64,000 nt of DNA from Phaeospirillum sp. (lineage in GTDB: Bacteria; Pseudomonadota; Alphaproteobacteria; Rhodospirillales; Magnetospirillaceae). Below the pieces are notes generated by a model. The model saw only the letters and a program-made list of their open reading frames with translations. It was not told where the DNA came from and searched no databases. Both the position numbers and the translations under genes were made by a program. Shown here piece after piece: positions 44,842 through 50,035 of this stretch. How positions within the stretch are numbered: position 1 is the stretch's first letter; each line of letters begins with the position of its first letter. Location: NCBI GenBank assembly GCA_030651575.1, contig JAUSFB010000044.1:1-64000 (forward strand), in the 5' to 3' direction.

Positions 44842-46506
44842 GTGCAGCAGCAGCCTCCCACTAAACAAACCGTCGGGGTACTGCACGGCCTGTCGTTCAA
44901 ACAGGCGGTGGCCACCTTGATCATCGCCCTGGGCCTGGGCGTGGTGGCTGGGGCCTGGGATCTGATCTCCGACTACCGCGACATGCGCCGGGAGGTTCAA
45001 GAAACCACCGCCGCCAATCTGGCGTTGGTGCGCGGGTTGGCGGTGGAATCTGCCTATCTGCTGAGTGCCGATCTGGCCGGGGAAGTGGCCGGCGGGTTGA
45101 TGCTCAACCCCCTGGTCGCCGAGGTCCGGCTATCCGACAATTTCGGCGACGTCCTGGGCCAGATCAAGCGCCCGGCCACCGCGACCGCCCTGCCGGACAT
45201 GACCGAGCGGCTGTTCGGCGACATCGTTACCTATTCCCTGACGCTGCAATCCTTCCAGCGGCAAAGCCGGGTGGATGTGGGTCGGCTGGAACTGAAACTC
45301 GATCCCGGCCGCCTGATGAACAGCTACCTCGCCCATGTCACCGCCAACGCCGCCGCCGGAGCCGCCCGGACCGTCCTGCTGTGCCTGCTGGTGGTGGCGG
45401 TGTTCTACGGCCTGATCACCAAGCCGCTGCTGAAGATCACTTCGGCCATCGCCACCGTCGACCCCGACCGGCCCGGCGCCGTCCTGATCGAGTTGCCCCG
45501 CCGCCACGAAGGCGACGAATTGGGGTTGCTGGTCTCCACCGTCAACGCGCTGCTGGCCCAATCCCAGGCCGGCCTGATCGGCCGCGACGCCGCCGAGGCC
45601 GAATTGGCGGCGCTGGCCCGCGATCTGGAACAGCGGGTCCTGGAGCGGACCGCCGAACTGGAGCGCGAGAAGGCGGTGGTCGAACGCGCCAACTCCGAAT
45701 TGGAAAAAGCCAACCGCTTCATCTCCGACGGCATCCGCTACGCCAGCCGCATCCAGACCGCCCTGCTGCCCGACGCCACGGCGTTGGAGGGTGCGGTCGA
45801 TGGAATCACCATCGGCTGGCGGCCGTTCGACATCGTCGGCGGCGACTACTACTGGACCGGCAAGTTCGGCGACAAGACGGTGATCGCGGTGATGGACTGC
45901 ACCGGCCACGGTGTCCCCGGCGCTTTCATGACCGCGGTGGTGTCGTCGATCCTGGCGCGCATCCTCCATCATCACGGCCATGACGACCCGGCGCTGATCC
46001 TGTCCCTACTCAATGTCTTGGTAAAGTCGGCCCTGCGCCAGGACCGGGCCGACGCCCCGGCCAATGACGGCCTCGACGCCGCCATCTGCGTCTTGGACCA
46101 TCATCGGGGCGTGGTCAGCTTCGCCGGCGCCAATCTGCCGCTGATGATCTGGTCGGATGGCCAGATGCAGGTCATCAAGGGTGACCGCCGCAGCCTGGGC
46201 TACCGCGACTCCGCCCCCGACGCTATCTTTACCGGCCACGAGATTCCCATCACTCCCGGCGCGATCTTCTATCTCTACACCGATGGGGTGATCGACCATA
46301 TGGGCGGCCCCTCCAAGCGGGCGCCGGGCCGCAAGCGGCTGTTCGGCCGTAACCGCCTGCAAGAAACCCTGGCCGGCCTCGCCCATCTGCCGCTGGAGCG
46401 GCAAAAGGAAAAGTTGTTCGCCGCCCTGGACGACTGGCGCGACGGCCAACCCTGGCGCGACGACATGACCTTCATCGCCTTTCGGCCGAAAAAGGCCGAA
46501 GCATGA
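44842..46506 (+). CDS. Membrane HAMP-SpoIIE (PP2C-type) serine phosphatase
   Basis: 554 residues, GTG start. TM1 lies at about 21-41, a periplasmic sensor of about 130 residues follows, TM2 is at about 171-192, and a HAMP domain comes next (about 193-245). A coiled coil (LARDLEQRVLERTAELEREK) leads into a SpoIIE/RsbU phosphatase domain (about 310-550) with metal-binding acids in DIVGGDYYW, VIAVMDCTGHGVPGAFM and IFYLYTDGVIDHMGG. Such enzymes usually dephosphorylate an anti-sigma-factor antagonist. The stop overlaps the yejA start (ATGA), so it is translationally coupled to the transporter operon. Confidence 0.88.
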   Translation: MQQQPPTKQTVGVLHGLSFKQAVATLIIALGLGVVAGAWDLISDYRDMRREVQETTAANLALVRGLAVESAYLLSADLAGEVAGGLMLNPLVAEVRLSDNFGDVLGQIKRPATATALPDMTERLFGDIVTYSLTLQSFQRQSRVDVGRLELKLDPGRLMNSYLAHVTANAAAGAARTVLLCLLVVAVFYGLITKPLLKITSAIATVDPDRPGAVLIELPRRHEGDELGLLVSTVNALLAQSQAGLIGRDAAEAELAALARDLEQRVLERTAELEREKAVVERANSELEKANRFISDGIRYASRIQTALLPDATALEGAVDGITIGWRPFDIVGGDYYWTGKFGDKTVIAVMDCTGHGVPGAFMTAVVSSILARILHHHGHDDPALILSLLNVLVKSALRQDRADAPANDGLDAAICVLDHHRGVVSFAGANLPLMIWSDGQMQVIKGDRRSLGYRDSAPDAIFTGHEIPITPGAIFYLYTDGVIDHMGGPSKRAPGRKRLFGRNRLQETLAGLAHLPLERQKEKLFAALDDWRDGQPWRDDMTFIAFRPKKAEA

Positions 46507-48311
46507 GCGTCCGGACCCTCATTCTCCTTCTGGCCGTCCTCGTCCTGGGTTTCCCCGCCGGGGCCGAGCCGGTCCACGGCATCGCCATGCATGGCGCCCT
46601 CAAATACCCGGCGGGGTTCAAGCAGTTCGACTATGTCGATCCCAACGCCCCCAAGGGCGGCGAAATCCGGTTGGCCGAGATCGGCGGCTGGGATTCGCTC
46701 AACCCCTATATCGTCAAGGGCGAGCCGCCGGGTGGGGCCGATTTGCCGTTCGAGACCCTGATGACCGGCTCGGCCGACGAAGCCTTTTCCGAATACGGCC
46801 TGATCGCCGAATCGCTGGAGACGCCGGCCGACCGCTCGTGGGTGATCTATACCTTGCGTCCCCAGGCCTGCTGGCACGATGGCAAGCCCATCACCGCTGA
46901 CGACGTGATTTTTTCGTTCGAGACCCTGAAGGCCAAGGGCCATCCCCGCTTTCGTTTCTATTACGCCGCCGTGGACAAGGTGGAACGCCTGGGCGAGCGC
47001 CGGGTCCGCTTCAGCTTCAAGCCGGGCGACAATCGCGAACTGCCGCTGATCGTCGGCCAATTGCCGGTGCTGCCCAAGCATTACTGGCAGGGCCGCGACT
47101 TTGCCGCCACCACCCTGGAGCCGCCGCTGGGCAGCGGCCCCTACCGCGTCGCCGCTTCCGAGACCGGCCGCTATATCGTCTATGAGCGGGTCAAGGACTA
47201 TTGGGGGGCCAATCTGCCGGTGCGTAAGGGCCAGTTCAACTTCGACCGCATCCGCTATGACACCTACCGTGACACCACCGTGGCGCTGGAGGCGTTCAAG
47301 GCCGGCGAATACGACTGGCGGCTGGAGAACGAGGCCCGCAAATGGGCGACCGCCTACGAGGACTGGCAAGGCCTGAAGGACGGCAAGGGCCGCAAGGAAG
47401 CCCTGCCCAACCAGCGTCCGGCCGGTATGCAGGCCTTCGCCTTCAACCTGCGCCGCGACCTGTTCCAAGATGCGCGGGTGCGCCAGGCCCTGTCCCACGC
47501 CTTCGACTTCGAATGGACCAACAAGACCCTGTTCTATGGCCAGTACAAACGAACCGTCAGCTACTTCGCCAACTCGGAACTGGCCGCCGCCGGCCTGCCG
47601 GGACCGCTGGAGCTGAAGGCGCTGGAGCCCTTGCGGAGTACAGTGCCGTCCGAGGTCTTCACCGCTCCCTACACGCCGCCCGCCACCGAGGGCGACGGCA
47701 ATATCCGCCCCAATCTGCGCAAGGCCATGGCCCTGTTGGAGCAAGCCGGCTGGCGGGTGGAAGACGGCAAGCTGGTCAAGGCCGGCCGGCCGTTCGTCTT
47801 TGAAATCCTGCTGGTCCAGCCCACCTGGGAGCGTATCGCCCTGCCATTCGCCCGCAATCTGGCGCGGCTGGGGGTCGAGGCCAATGTGCGGACCGTCGAT
47901 TCCGCCCAGTACAAGAACCGCCTGGATCATTATGATTTCGACATGGTGGTCCATGTTTGGGGCCAGTCCCAGTCGCCCGGCAACGAGCAGGCCAGCTTCT
48001 GGGGCAGCGAATCGGCCGACCAACCCGGCGGCCAGAATTTAGCCGGCATCCGCAACCCCGCCATCGACGCCCTGGTCGATCAGGTCATCGCCGCCCCCGA
48101 CCGCGAAATCCTGGTGGCCAATACCAGGGCGCTGGACCGGGTGCTGTTGTGGAACCACTACGTCATCCCCCACTGGCATCTCGGCCTCGACCGGCTGGTG
48201 TGGTGGGACAAGTTCGGCCGTCCAGCCATCTCGCCCGCCAACGGGGTGCAGCTGTTCAGCTGGTGGACTCGTCCAAACGCAGCAGCTGAACAACAAACCA
48301 ATGCGCGCTGA
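46503..48311 (+). CDS. yejA: Peptide/microcin C-type ABC transporter substrate-binding protein
   Basis: 602 residues. A Sec signal (LILLLAVLVLGFPAGA) precedes the SBP family 5 fold: HGIAMHGALKYPAGFKQFDYVDPNAPKGGEI, WVIYTLRPQACWHDGKPITADDVIFSFE and VRQALSHAFDFEWTNKTLFY are YejA-like. It binds oligopeptides (in E. coli also microcin C) for import by YejBEF. Its start overlaps the phosphatase stop. The C-terminal codons contain a hairpin (TGTTCAGCTG at 48253-48262 with CAGCTGAACA at 48283-48292), which may weaken readthrough into the inserted NYN gene downstream. Confidence 0.93.
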   Translation: MSVRTLILLLAVLVLGFPAGAEPVHGIAMHGALKYPAGFKQFDYVDPNAPKGGEIRLAEIGGWDSLNPYIVKGEPPGGADLPFETLMTGSADEAFSEYGLIAESLETPADRSWVIYTLRPQACWHDGKPITADDVIFSFETLKAKGHPRFRFYYAAVDKVERLGERRVRFSFKPGDNRELPLIVGQLPVLPKHYWQGRDFAATTLEPPLGSGPYRVAASETGRYIVYERVKDYWGANLPVRKGQFNFDRIRYDTYRDTTVALEAFKAGEYDWRLENEARKWATAYEDWQGLKDGKGRKEALPNQRPAGMQAFAFNLRRDLFQDARVRQALSHAFDFEWTNKTLFYGQYKRTVSYFANSELAAAGLPGPLELKALEPLRSTVPSEVFTAPYTPPATEGDGNIRPNLRKAMALLEQAGWRVEDGKLVKAGRPFVFEILLVQPTWERIALPFARNLARLGVEANVRTVDSAQYKNRLDHYDFDMVVHVWGQSQSPGNEQASFWGSESADQPGGQNLAGIRNPAIDALVDQVIAAPDREILVANTRALDRVLLWNHYVIPHWHLGLDRLVWWDKFGRPAISPANGVQLFSWWTRPNAAAEQQTNAR

Positions 48312-48332
48312 ATACGCCTTTTGTGATTGCTT

Positions 48333-48430
48333 TTGCGTTTTGCGAAAAGTAGAGTGGTCTACTATATCCGCTACGCCCGTAGGCGGGCATGTTAATCGAG
48401 ACCCCCTTGCGGCAACGCTTGGGGGTCTTT
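48333..48430 (+). promoter_or_regulatory. Promoter and structured RNA leader of the NYN gene
   Basis: An AT-rich patch contains a direct TTTTGCG repeat (48331-48344) and a plausible promoter, TTGCGA (48340-48345) with 17 bp to CTATAT (48363-48368). Three compact hairpins follow: AGTAGA/TCTACT (48348-48363), GCCCG-TAGG-CGGGC (48375-48388), and GACCCCC/GGGGGTC (48400-48427) with a TT/TT internal loop, a GCG/CGC stem and a GCAA (GNRA) tetraloop, ending in TCTTTC. The 3' arm holds the only Shine-Dalgarno-like G-run, 9 bases before the GTG start. It could act as a terminator, an attenuator or a translational switch. Confidence 0.5.
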
Positions 48431-48434
48431 CACT

Positions 48435-48926
48435 GTGACGTGCGCATCCGTACTGATCGACGGGGGACATCTAAGGGTTCAGGCGACCCAGGCCGGGCAA
48501 GCATACAGCCCGGATTTCATCGAGAAGGTCGCCCATTCCTGCGTAAGGTCCGACGAGTCCCTCTTGCGGGTGCTGTATTACGATTGCGCTCCAGATGTTG
48601 GGTACGGTGCGTCTCGGCGTGCTGAAATTCAGGGGCTTCAAGCCGCGAAAAATTCCGCTTGTGACTGCGCCGCTGACTTCAAGCCCATTTTCGAGCAAAA
48701 GGGCGTCGATATGCGTACCGGATTGGATATTGTAAATTTCGCGGCAAAAAATTCCGTGGATCGGATCATTCTCATTACCGCCGATACCGATTGCCTTCCG
48801 GCCATGAAACATGCCCGTACTGCCGGCCTTCAGATTGTTCTGGTCTCGCTTCCCAATGGCCGGCCCGCACAAGAATTACTCTGGCACAGTGACTTCAGGC
48901 GCCCAATTTCCTGGCTCCCCACATGA
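48435..48926 (+). CDS. NYN-domain (PIN-like) putative RNase inserted in the yej operon
   Basis: 163 residues, GTG start. The NYN/LabA-type PIN fold is indicated by SVLIDGGHLR (D9), MRTGLDIVNFAAKNSVDR (D98) and ILITADTDCLPAMKHARTAGLQIVLVS (D117, D119), the acidic residues that bind metal in this nuclease superfamily. Seven cysteines is unusually many. Codon use is clearly AT-richer than the flanking yej genes, suggesting lateral acquisition. It sits between yejA and yejB, which are normally adjacent, and its stop overlaps the yejB ATG (ATGA). It may be a mobile cassette or an RNase regulating local transcripts; neither is shown. Confidence 0.8.
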   Translation: MTCASVLIDGGHLRVQATQAGQAYSPDFIEKVAHSCVRSDESLLRVLYYDCAPDVGYGASRRAEIQGLQAAKNSACDCAADFKPIFEQKGVDMRTGLDIVNFAAKNSVDRIILITADTDCLPAMKHARTAGLQIVLVSLPNGRPAQELLWHSDFRRPISWLPT

Positions 48927-50035
48927 TCGCCTACACGCTCCGCCGCCTGATGCTGATTCCGCTGACCCTGTTCGGCATCATGCTGGTGAATTTCATGGTG
49001 GTGCAGTTCGCCCCGGGCGGGCCGGTCGAGCTGATGATCGCCAAGGTCCAGGGCGTCAATGTGGAGGCCGCCGCCCGCGTCTCCGGTTCCAGCGGCGGCG
49101 AAAGTGCCGCGCCCCGGACAGCGCGCGGCCAGAGCGGCCAAGGCAACCAGGGGGCCTATCGCGGCGCCCAGGGCCTCGACCCCGCCTTCATCAAGGAGAT
49201 CGAAAAGCAGTTCGGCTTCGACAAGCCGGCCCATGAGCGTTTTTTCCTGATGCTGGGCCAGTATGTGCGCTTCGACTTCGGCAAAAGCTTTTACCGCGAC
49301 GTCTCGGTGATGGGGCTGGTGATCGAGAAGATGCCGGTCTCGGTGTCGCTGGGGCTGTGGAGCACCCTGATCATCTACCTTGTCTCGATTCCGCTGGGCA
49401 TCGCCAAGGCACGGCGCGACGGCTCGCGCTTCGATATCGCCACCTCCTGGGCGGTGATCATCGGCTATGCCGTGCCCGGCTTCCTGTTCGCCATCTTGCT
49501 GGTGGTGCTGTTCGCCGGCGGCAAGTATCTGGCCTGGTTTCCCCTGCGCGGCCTGTCGACGCCGGGCATGGAAGGCCAGCCGCTGCTGGCCCGCGCCATC
49601 GACTACGCCTGGCATCTGGCCCTGCCGGTGACGGCGCTGGTGGTGGGCGGCTTTGCCTCGCTGACCATGCTGACCAAGAACTCGTTCCTGGAGGAGATCA
49701 ACAAGCAGTACGTGGTGACCGCCAGGGCCAAGGGCCTGACCGAGCATCGGGTGCTGTACGGCCATGTTTTTCGCAACGCCATGCTGCTGATCGTCGCCGG
49801 CTTTCCCCGCGCCCTGGTGGGAATCCTGTTTACCGGCTCGGTGCTGGTGGAGATCATCTTCTCGCTGGACGGCATCGGCCTCCTGGGCTTCGAGGCGGTC
49901 AGCAACCGTGACTATCCGGTGATGTTCGGCACGCTCTACGCCTTCAGCTTGCTGGGGCTGGTGCTGAATCTGGTCAGCGACCTGACCTATCACTGGGTCG
50001 ATCCCCGGATCGACTTCGGCAAGCGGGAGGGATGA
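48923..50035 (+). CDS. yejB: Peptide/microcin C-type ABC transporter permease B
   Basis: 370 residues. Six helices of the DppB/YejB type are visible, starting with YTLRRLMLIPLTLFGIMLVN, and the EAA loop is VVTARAKGLTEHRVLYGHVFRNA. A Gly/Ser/Ala-rich low-complexity insertion lies at about residues 52-80 in the first periplasmic loop, with GLDPAFIKEIEKQFGFDKPAHERF after it. It forms half of the transmembrane channel with YejE. ATG overlaps the stop of the NYN gene. Confidence 0.93.
   Translation: MIAYTLRRLMLIPLTLFGIMLVNFMVVQFAPGGPVELMIAKVQGVNVEAAARVSGSSGGESAAPRTARGQSGQGNQGAYRGAQGLDPAFIKEIEKQFGFDKPAHERFFLMLGQYVRFDFGKSFYRDVSVMGLVIEKMPVSVSLGLWSTLIIYLVSIPLGIAKARRDGSRFDIATSWAVIIGYAVPGFLFAILLVVLFAGGKYLAWFPLRGLSTPGMEGQPLLARAIDYAWHLALPVTALVVGGFASLTMLTKNSFLEEINKQYVVTARAKGLTEHRVLYGHVFRNAMLLIVAGFPRALVGILFTGSVLVEIIFSLDGIGLLGFEAVSNRDYPVMFGTLYAFSLLGLVLNLVSDLTYHWVDPRIDFGKREG

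Follow-up and report, generated by a model that had tools for sequence, protein, structure and literature searches.

Insert between yejA and yejB

The window, the entire 64-kb stretch of DNA analysed here, corresponds to contig C20 of a 4.2 Mb source genome. On its forward strand, the genes yejA (46503-48311), encoding an extracellular solute-binding protein of family 5, and yejB (48923-50035), encoding a permease, both assigned from the list of open reading frames (ORFs) and Pfam matches, are separated by an insert of about 648 nt (~48275-48922, same strand), which is AT-richer than its surroundings and which 16 of 17 close relatives lack. The left end of the insert, accurate to within a few nucleotides, was placed by eye at the point where the yejA frame departs from the ending of its family. 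The insert contains only a small RNA element and a gene for an NYN-type nuclease (48435-48926, forward strand), whose stop codon overlaps the ATG of yejB in an exact ATGA, as originally predicted. Neither a transposase nor a recombinase was found in the insert, and no target duplication was seen at its ends, the junctions being judged by eye.

The expectation that yejA and yejB are normally contiguous was borne out. Of the 17 other genomes of the genus and family, 16 have the two genes abutting or overlapping (gap -4 to +4 nt); in five of these 16 the script overran the yejA stop (giving -28 or -34), and there the CCATGA overlap was identified by visual inspection. At the level of the order, yejA lies within 150 nt of yejB in ten of 11 genomes, and in the remaining one (L035) no yejA was found within 1500 nt. 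The yejB gene itself was detected in 29 of 30 sampled relatives.

The NYN ORF has a GC content of 0.557, against 0.644-0.677 in five neighbouring genes, and a GC3 of 0.598, against 0.842-0.892 in the same neighbours; equally AT-rich stretches of 492 nt account for 0.9% of the 64 kb. The patch immediately preceding the RNA (48312-48364) has a GC content of 0.396, a value as low as this being reached in 0.3% of 53-nt segments. The insert is sporadic among relatives, and its description as foreign-looking is upheld.

In the yejB trees, the window pairs with G008, whose site is empty (support for the pair 0.95 and 0.96), and G007 falls outside this pair. G007 carries the same RNA directly before yejB, without an NYN gene (87% over 68 nt; 39 bits with the model R1 described below). 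An unrelated 424-codon frame (L077:6221-7495) sits between yejA and the RNA in this genome, and thus the yejA/yejB junction took up other DNA as well. The history of the site in the window and G007 may have involved ancestral occupation and losses, repeated gain, or exchange between lineages.

The clean 3' end of the NYN gene had been read as a possible sign of long co-evolution with the operon. This reading does not hold, since the NYN stop falls where the yejA stop of the relatives falls (CCATGA), and the NYN gene is decayed. Because an RNA gene with its terminator now stands before yejB, the present effect on the host is likely to be on yejBEF, and yejA and yejBEF are probably uncoupled.

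The NYN gene

The NYN frame starts with GTG and is open for 163 codons. Its product matches the Pfam family NYN (PF01936) with 29.4 bits, above the curated cut-off of 24.2, as well as PHROG 5783 and the PADLOC profiles HEC-09 (2.6e-6) and NYN (8.9e-4); the nearest solved structure in a PDB fold search is 2qip. No second copy of the gene was found in the source genome.

The gene had been described as a 163-codon NYN/PIN-like gene; frame-aware alignment and a structure model reveal it to be broken. Frame-aware alignment to three intact homologues gave scores of 521, 490 and 425, against 460, 439 and 411, respectively, for in-frame alignment. Relative to these homologues, the stretch at 48600-48674 (forward strand) is out of frame beside a loss of 28-29 codons: the frame changes near 48600-48607 and is regained near 48661-48674, the exact ends varying with the reference. 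In the structure model, residues 54-89 of the window protein have pLDDT values below 50, while both ends of the NYN core are modelled at high confidence and retain their conserved aspartates. The AlphaFold model of the intact homologue L125 (mean pLDDT 96) has several strands across the same middle region. Many genomes carry intact versions of the gene. The window protein lacks a complete NYN domain, and the nuclease is probably dead in this genome; a working nuclease at this locus is not supported. The preservation of an open frame despite the breakage could be a coincidence, or could reflect coupling of yejB translation to it.

A conserved hairpin RNA

The RNA core, composed of UAUCCGCUAC and the hairpin GCCC-GUAGGC-GGGC (48375-48388), occupies positions 48365-48391 of the forward strand. 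It was delineated by model R1 and by covariation in homologues. The model was built from 37 sequences of NYN loci with the window left out, and the window RNA scores 44 bits against it (E 1.9e-10), with 26 of 27 positions identical to the consensus. For the surrounding leader (48340-48440), the folding energy is -43.3 kcal/mol (z -3.47) and none of 200 shuffled sequences was as stable, in agreement with the structured leader originally predicted.

The suggested check of whether the leader segment 48340-48430 recurs with NYN genes elsewhere came out positive for its core. Of 160 homologous loci, 63 have the 27-nt core ahead of the NYN gene (53 of 80 from genomes and 10 of 80 from viral contigs), the 160 being the best 80 of each of two scans, a non-random set that includes near-duplicates; the GUAGGC core is absent from the other 97. 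The distance from the core to the start of the NYN match is mostly 58-101 nt, and the order is a near-identical TATCCGCTACGCCCGTAGGCGGGCA, a hairpin with a T-rich tail, and the NYN start. If at most three mismatches are allowed, TATCCGCTACGCCCGTAGGCGGGCA is present in 60 of the 160 loci; among the first 48 listed, 40 have it. A GTAGGC loop flanked by four paired arm positions was likewise found in 60 of 160 loci, against a single locus for one of 26 permuted loops and none for the other 25, and in a further 1.86 Mb of sequence it occurs five times.

The stem covaries around an invariant loop. At 69 sites (63 loci), picked by CCG and the loop alone with no requirement for pairing, the inner three pairs are formed in 68 and all four in 65. 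The arms are GCCC/GGGC (34 sites), GCTC/GAGC (17), GCCG/CGGC (6), GCCT/AGGC (2) and GCTT/AAGC (2), and ACCC/GGGT and ACCG/CGGT were also seen. The loop and its flank vary far less than the stem does.

A cmscan search of all Rfam 15 families gave none near its cut-off at the RNA. Two sub-cut-off matches overlapping the RNA, to ctRNA_p42d at the terminator (21 bits, cut-off 50) and to Atu_C7 at L125 (18 bits, cut-off 45), were taken as chance. A pseudoknot was dropped from consideration by reasoning only, as no space is left for its loops. A BLAST search of the leader against 60 relatives, 38 of which gave a match at E <= 1, was convincing only for the window and G007, the rest of the matches being short.

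Predicted promoter, terminator and tandem hairpins

A weak promoter-like sequence, TTGCTT-17-TAGAGT (48327-48355, forward strand), was recognised by eye where TTGAC promoters stand in homologous loci. The RNA core is followed by a terminator-like hairpin (48398-48429, forward strand), identified by folding, with a counterpart in homologues, and its G-rich 3' arm may also act as the ribosome-binding site of the NYN frame. This hairpin is absent from the output of a consensus scan of 48200-49100, which returned neither a sigma-70 site nor a terminator-like site. Thus, of the AT-rich promoter-like patch ascribed to the gene, the AT-richness stands but the promoter is a weak match.

Upstream of the RNA, TTGAC is present in 45 of 61 loci, with 3.8 expected, and for 37 of the 48 occurrences the distance to the following TCCG is 36-42 nt, which places the expected transcription start near UAUCCG. 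A hairpin with a T-rich tail follows the RNA in all 56 loci examined, four loci having been excluded beforehand. Among 130 non-redundant loci, 90 have a hairpin of -15 kcal/mol or lower with a T-rich tail ahead of the NYN gene, whereas 31 of 262 other genes there are preceded by one; in the 72 non-redundant loci devoid of the GTAGGC core, a terminator-like hairpin is present in 38 and missing in 34. Tandem hairpins occur in L127 (Massilia), which has four, and L130 (Trinickia), which has three; other loci have a single hairpin, many of them then with a partial TATCC.

Distribution of the nuclease and the RNA

Relatives of the NYN protein were found in 14 of 149 genomes, the source genome included. 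Fifteen of the 16 other genomes of the genus have no NYN match, and the match in G012 (E 2.4e-4) was rejected because it belongs to a different NYN type. In a tree of 85 NYN rows, one clade of 61 rows (support 99) has members from Pseudomonadota, Acidobacteriota, Myxococcota and Nitrospinota intermingled, although its labels are still clustered and wrongly binned contigs can inflate the mixing of phyla. The RNA is tied to the NYN family in these four phyla, in Planctomycetota and in others. Another hairpin is shared, as judged by eye, by at least three loci (L108, L114 and L118) of an NYN clade with five rows (support 96), so the RNA type seems to follow the protein clade.

Other NYN subfamilies (L140, L146 and L155; L147 and L148; L170 and L171; L173; L174) have, by eye, different structured stretches ending in a T run directly upstream, perhaps representing more RNA types. 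In the lambdoid phage ev099, a distant NYN relative (L310:1495-2352), preceded by a promoter-like stretch, a hairpin and a T run, is located between the repressor and N-like genes. In other lambdoid phages this interval is the place of exclusion genes. The NYN gene of G041 (L003:1753-3228), which has no GTAGGC RNA, adjoins a frame resembling VirD4/TraG coupling proteins, as seen by eye, and is perhaps part of a conjugative element. Distant NYN relatives were also found in 168 plasmid records, 136 of them from Campylobacter; nearly all of the 30 plasmid rows viewed are annotated as NYN domain proteins.

Among 385 genomes of the class, R1 detected seven strong sites in six genomes, counting only sites of at least 29 bits; 37 genomes matched at E <= 0.05. 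Thirty-one have weaker matches only, and three of these that were read (L249-L251) contained no NYN among the frames printed. In 398 genomes of the phylum, matches at E <= 5e-4 were obtained in two, the window included. An exact-pattern search of the 385 class genomes gave about as many matches in the reversed control as in the real sequences, and therefore proves nothing by itself.

At the nine cellular RNA sites, the NYN gene is intact in three (G424, G204 and G201), broken in three (the window and both sites in G501) and absent in three (G007, G407 and G585). Loss of the nuclease beside a retained RNA fits a requirement that the RNA outlast the nuclease. The two copies in G501 share only ~165 nt, comprising the promoter region, the RNA and the gene start, and have no shared ends. 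The genes flanking five sampled modules are unrelated, encoding RsgA, an IS1 transposase, a release factor, HrcA and others, and three of the ten flanking proteins have no Pfam match. The notion of a self-moving cassette finds no backing in the absence of a transposase, of shared ends and of any target duplication visible by eye.

Stand-alone RNAs in viral contigs

A scan of IMG/VR that started from the RNA yielded 32 sites, of which those in L290 and L300 are identical around the site. The arms are matched at all 32, though mixed arms were permitted by the pattern. An NYN gene follows in eight, an NYN-like start that soon stops in one (L292), and none in 23, three of which have less than 300 nt of downstream DNA. 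Some of the viral sites may belong to other hairpin families.

All 24 viral sites that lack an intact NYN gene were checked for tRNA genes, and several lie close to one. The hairpin stands behind a same-strand gene for tRNA-Trp at a distance of 5 nt in L283 (5808-5908), for tRNA-Thr at 26 nt in L289 (1248-1370), and for tRNA-Ser at 50 nt in L282 (3796-3945), and same-strand tRNA genes lie within ~1.4 kb of the hairpin in L284, L290, L300 and L304. A tRNA gene was found within 200 nt in one of 54 NYN modules (L123) and within 1.7 kb in none of the eight viral NYN sites. The gene behind the tRNA-Trp and the stand-alone RNA (L283:5988-7010) resembles SIR2_2/AbiH-type defence genes (3.9e-5, just under the Pfam cut-off).

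Phage and plasmid records were compared with the short RNA by BLAST, an insensitive approach; the four matches opened, of 15 listed, included a real stand-alone RNA with a terminator on a Paracoccus plasmid, with the same sequence as L287. Matches in Citrobacter and Pectobacterium plasmids and in a fecal phage were dropped, as they have no GTAGGC loop.

Proposed function and alternatives

The anatomy of the locus, the co-occurrence of RNA and nuclease, the covariation, the sporadic spread over phyla and the broken nuclease beside a retained RNA, all read from sequence, point to a recurrent unit, and the compact RNA-nuclease unit of the original prediction is upheld in this form. With roughly even confidence, we regard the insert as a decaying copy of this two-part module, most likely acting in the manner of type III toxin-antitoxin systems or AbiF. 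By analogy with these, the module would be expected to possess promoter activity, RNA-protein binding, RNase activity, toxicity and a role in defence. The promoter would yield a short RNA (~65 nt in the window) that starts with UAUCCG and carries the GUAGGC-loop hairpin, in tandem in two loci, and the terminator, while read-through past the terminator would produce the NYN-fold RNase encoded directly behind the RNA. The RNA, being in excess, would bind and restrain the nuclease, whose output the terminator would keep down. If the RNA were lost, for instance upon shut-off of host transcription by a phage, the nuclease would be freed. The 97 of 160 loci without the RNA core, the 34 of 72 non-redundant ones that also lack the terminator-like hairpin, the single hairpin of most loci, the weak promoter match of the window and a nearest solved structure (2qip) that points to no common fold with ToxN speak against a toxin-antitoxin reading, and the stand-alone hairpins at 23 of 32 viral sites against a strict pairing of RNA and NYN.

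More tentatively, these loci could represent an undescribed class of RNA-controlled NYN ribonuclease systems, founded on a GUAGGC-loop hairpin RNA and occurring in several phyla and viral contigs, from which phages have captured the RNA alone, repeatedly beside tRNA genes of their contigs, as a decoy disarming the nuclease. The boldest account of the stand-alone viral RNAs, though not a firm one, is that they act as decoys sequestering the nuclease; these copies would serve as natural test cases for RNA decoys.

One competing idea is that the RNA is only a cis-acting leader, a non-toxic NYN protein binding or cutting its own hairpin leader and so tuning read-through of the terminator. In the loci counted, RNA and terminator are always upstream of NYN on the same strand, and terminator-like hairpins precede NYN in 90 of 130, as autoregulation would have it, but the RNA is retained without any NYN at three cellular sites (G007, G407 and G585) and at the 23 viral sites, including the three with little downstream DNA, and is repeated in tandem in two loci, so that we think this unlikely. 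It is rather improbable that the RNA is a cofactor or guide, carried by the nuclease and picking targets through the exposed UAUCCG or the GUAGGC loop: a recognition or pairing surface should indeed be far more constant than the stem, but so should a protein-binding site, and no variable guide part was seen in the RNA.

Little weight can likewise be given to a compact working NYN nuclease serving the yej operon, its shortened middle being an adaptation. The open frame meets yejB in an exact overlap, and the flanking parts of the NYN core are modelled with high confidence; against this, the middle agrees with homologues only in another frame, is poorly modelled at residues 54-89 where the intact homologue has strands, and no other genome of the genus carries an NYN gene at yejA/yejB. 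As for the hairpin being a DNA-level mobile repeat moving by itself, presumably like REP elements, which it resembles, the spread over phyla, the two copies in G501 and the hairpins without NYN would all fit. Nevertheless, this is very improbable, as the insert has no transposase and no target duplication visible by eye, the G501 copies share only ~165 nt, and a promoter and terminator, needless for a DNA site, are conserved.

The RNA is of interest as a near-invariant core with a covarying stem that is tied to one nuclease family and matched by no Rfam 15 family. If it is an antitoxin, NYN would be a further enzyme fold among RNA-inhibited nucleases, and the module would offer a short, synthesizable RNA-protein pair for testing. 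The window adds a further case of a broken nuclease beside a preserved RNA.

Comparison with known systems

The NYN/LabA-like nucleases (PF01936; PHROG 5783; PADLOC NYN and HEC-09) have the fold and the conserved aspartates in common with the module. PHROG 5783 has no stated function, and no library entry names an RNA partner. The CRISPR-associated NYN protein of Bacteroides fragilis cuts single-stranded RNA and is proposed to trim small RNAs (PMC11346440); it belongs to a type III CRISPR locus. The titles and abstract openings of the literature, which was covered in part, describe no NYN gene with an upstream RNA; PMC12557735 was set aside, as 'NYN' there denotes a codon scheme.

Searches for type III toxin-antitoxin systems look for a promoter, a small repeat RNA, a terminator and an RNase gene (PMC8860590). 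As in ToxIN, CptIN and TenpIN, the module has a promoter, a small RNA and a terminator, with a putative RNase gene directly behind: a predicted -35/-10 promoter, weak in the window itself, precedes the RNA, and the terminator lies between the RNA and the nuclease gene. The enzyme is, however, an NYN protein and not of the ToxN-type fold, no ToxN-type entry (families ToxN, CptN and TenpN) being found in Pfam or among the leading PDB fold matches, and the RNA is mostly one short hairpin, not an array, with no pseudoknot found.

AbiF with its RNA RCd22 (Rfam RF03085) is similar in layout. PMC12373285 describes a prophage-borne candidate with its own promoter, a short structured RNA with a repeated motif, acting in cis and in trans, and a terminator. 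In both AbiF and the module, promoter, structured RNA and terminator are followed by a nuclease-like gene, but AbiF carries an Abi_2/AbiF protein and another RNA, while the module carries NYN. Consistently, RF03085 was not matched by cmscan with all Rfam 15 families, and Pfam gives NYN only, with no Abi_2/AbiF protein. Thus, the module shares the gene order of the type III and AbiF systems and, differing from them in both enzyme family and RNA, is a member of neither.
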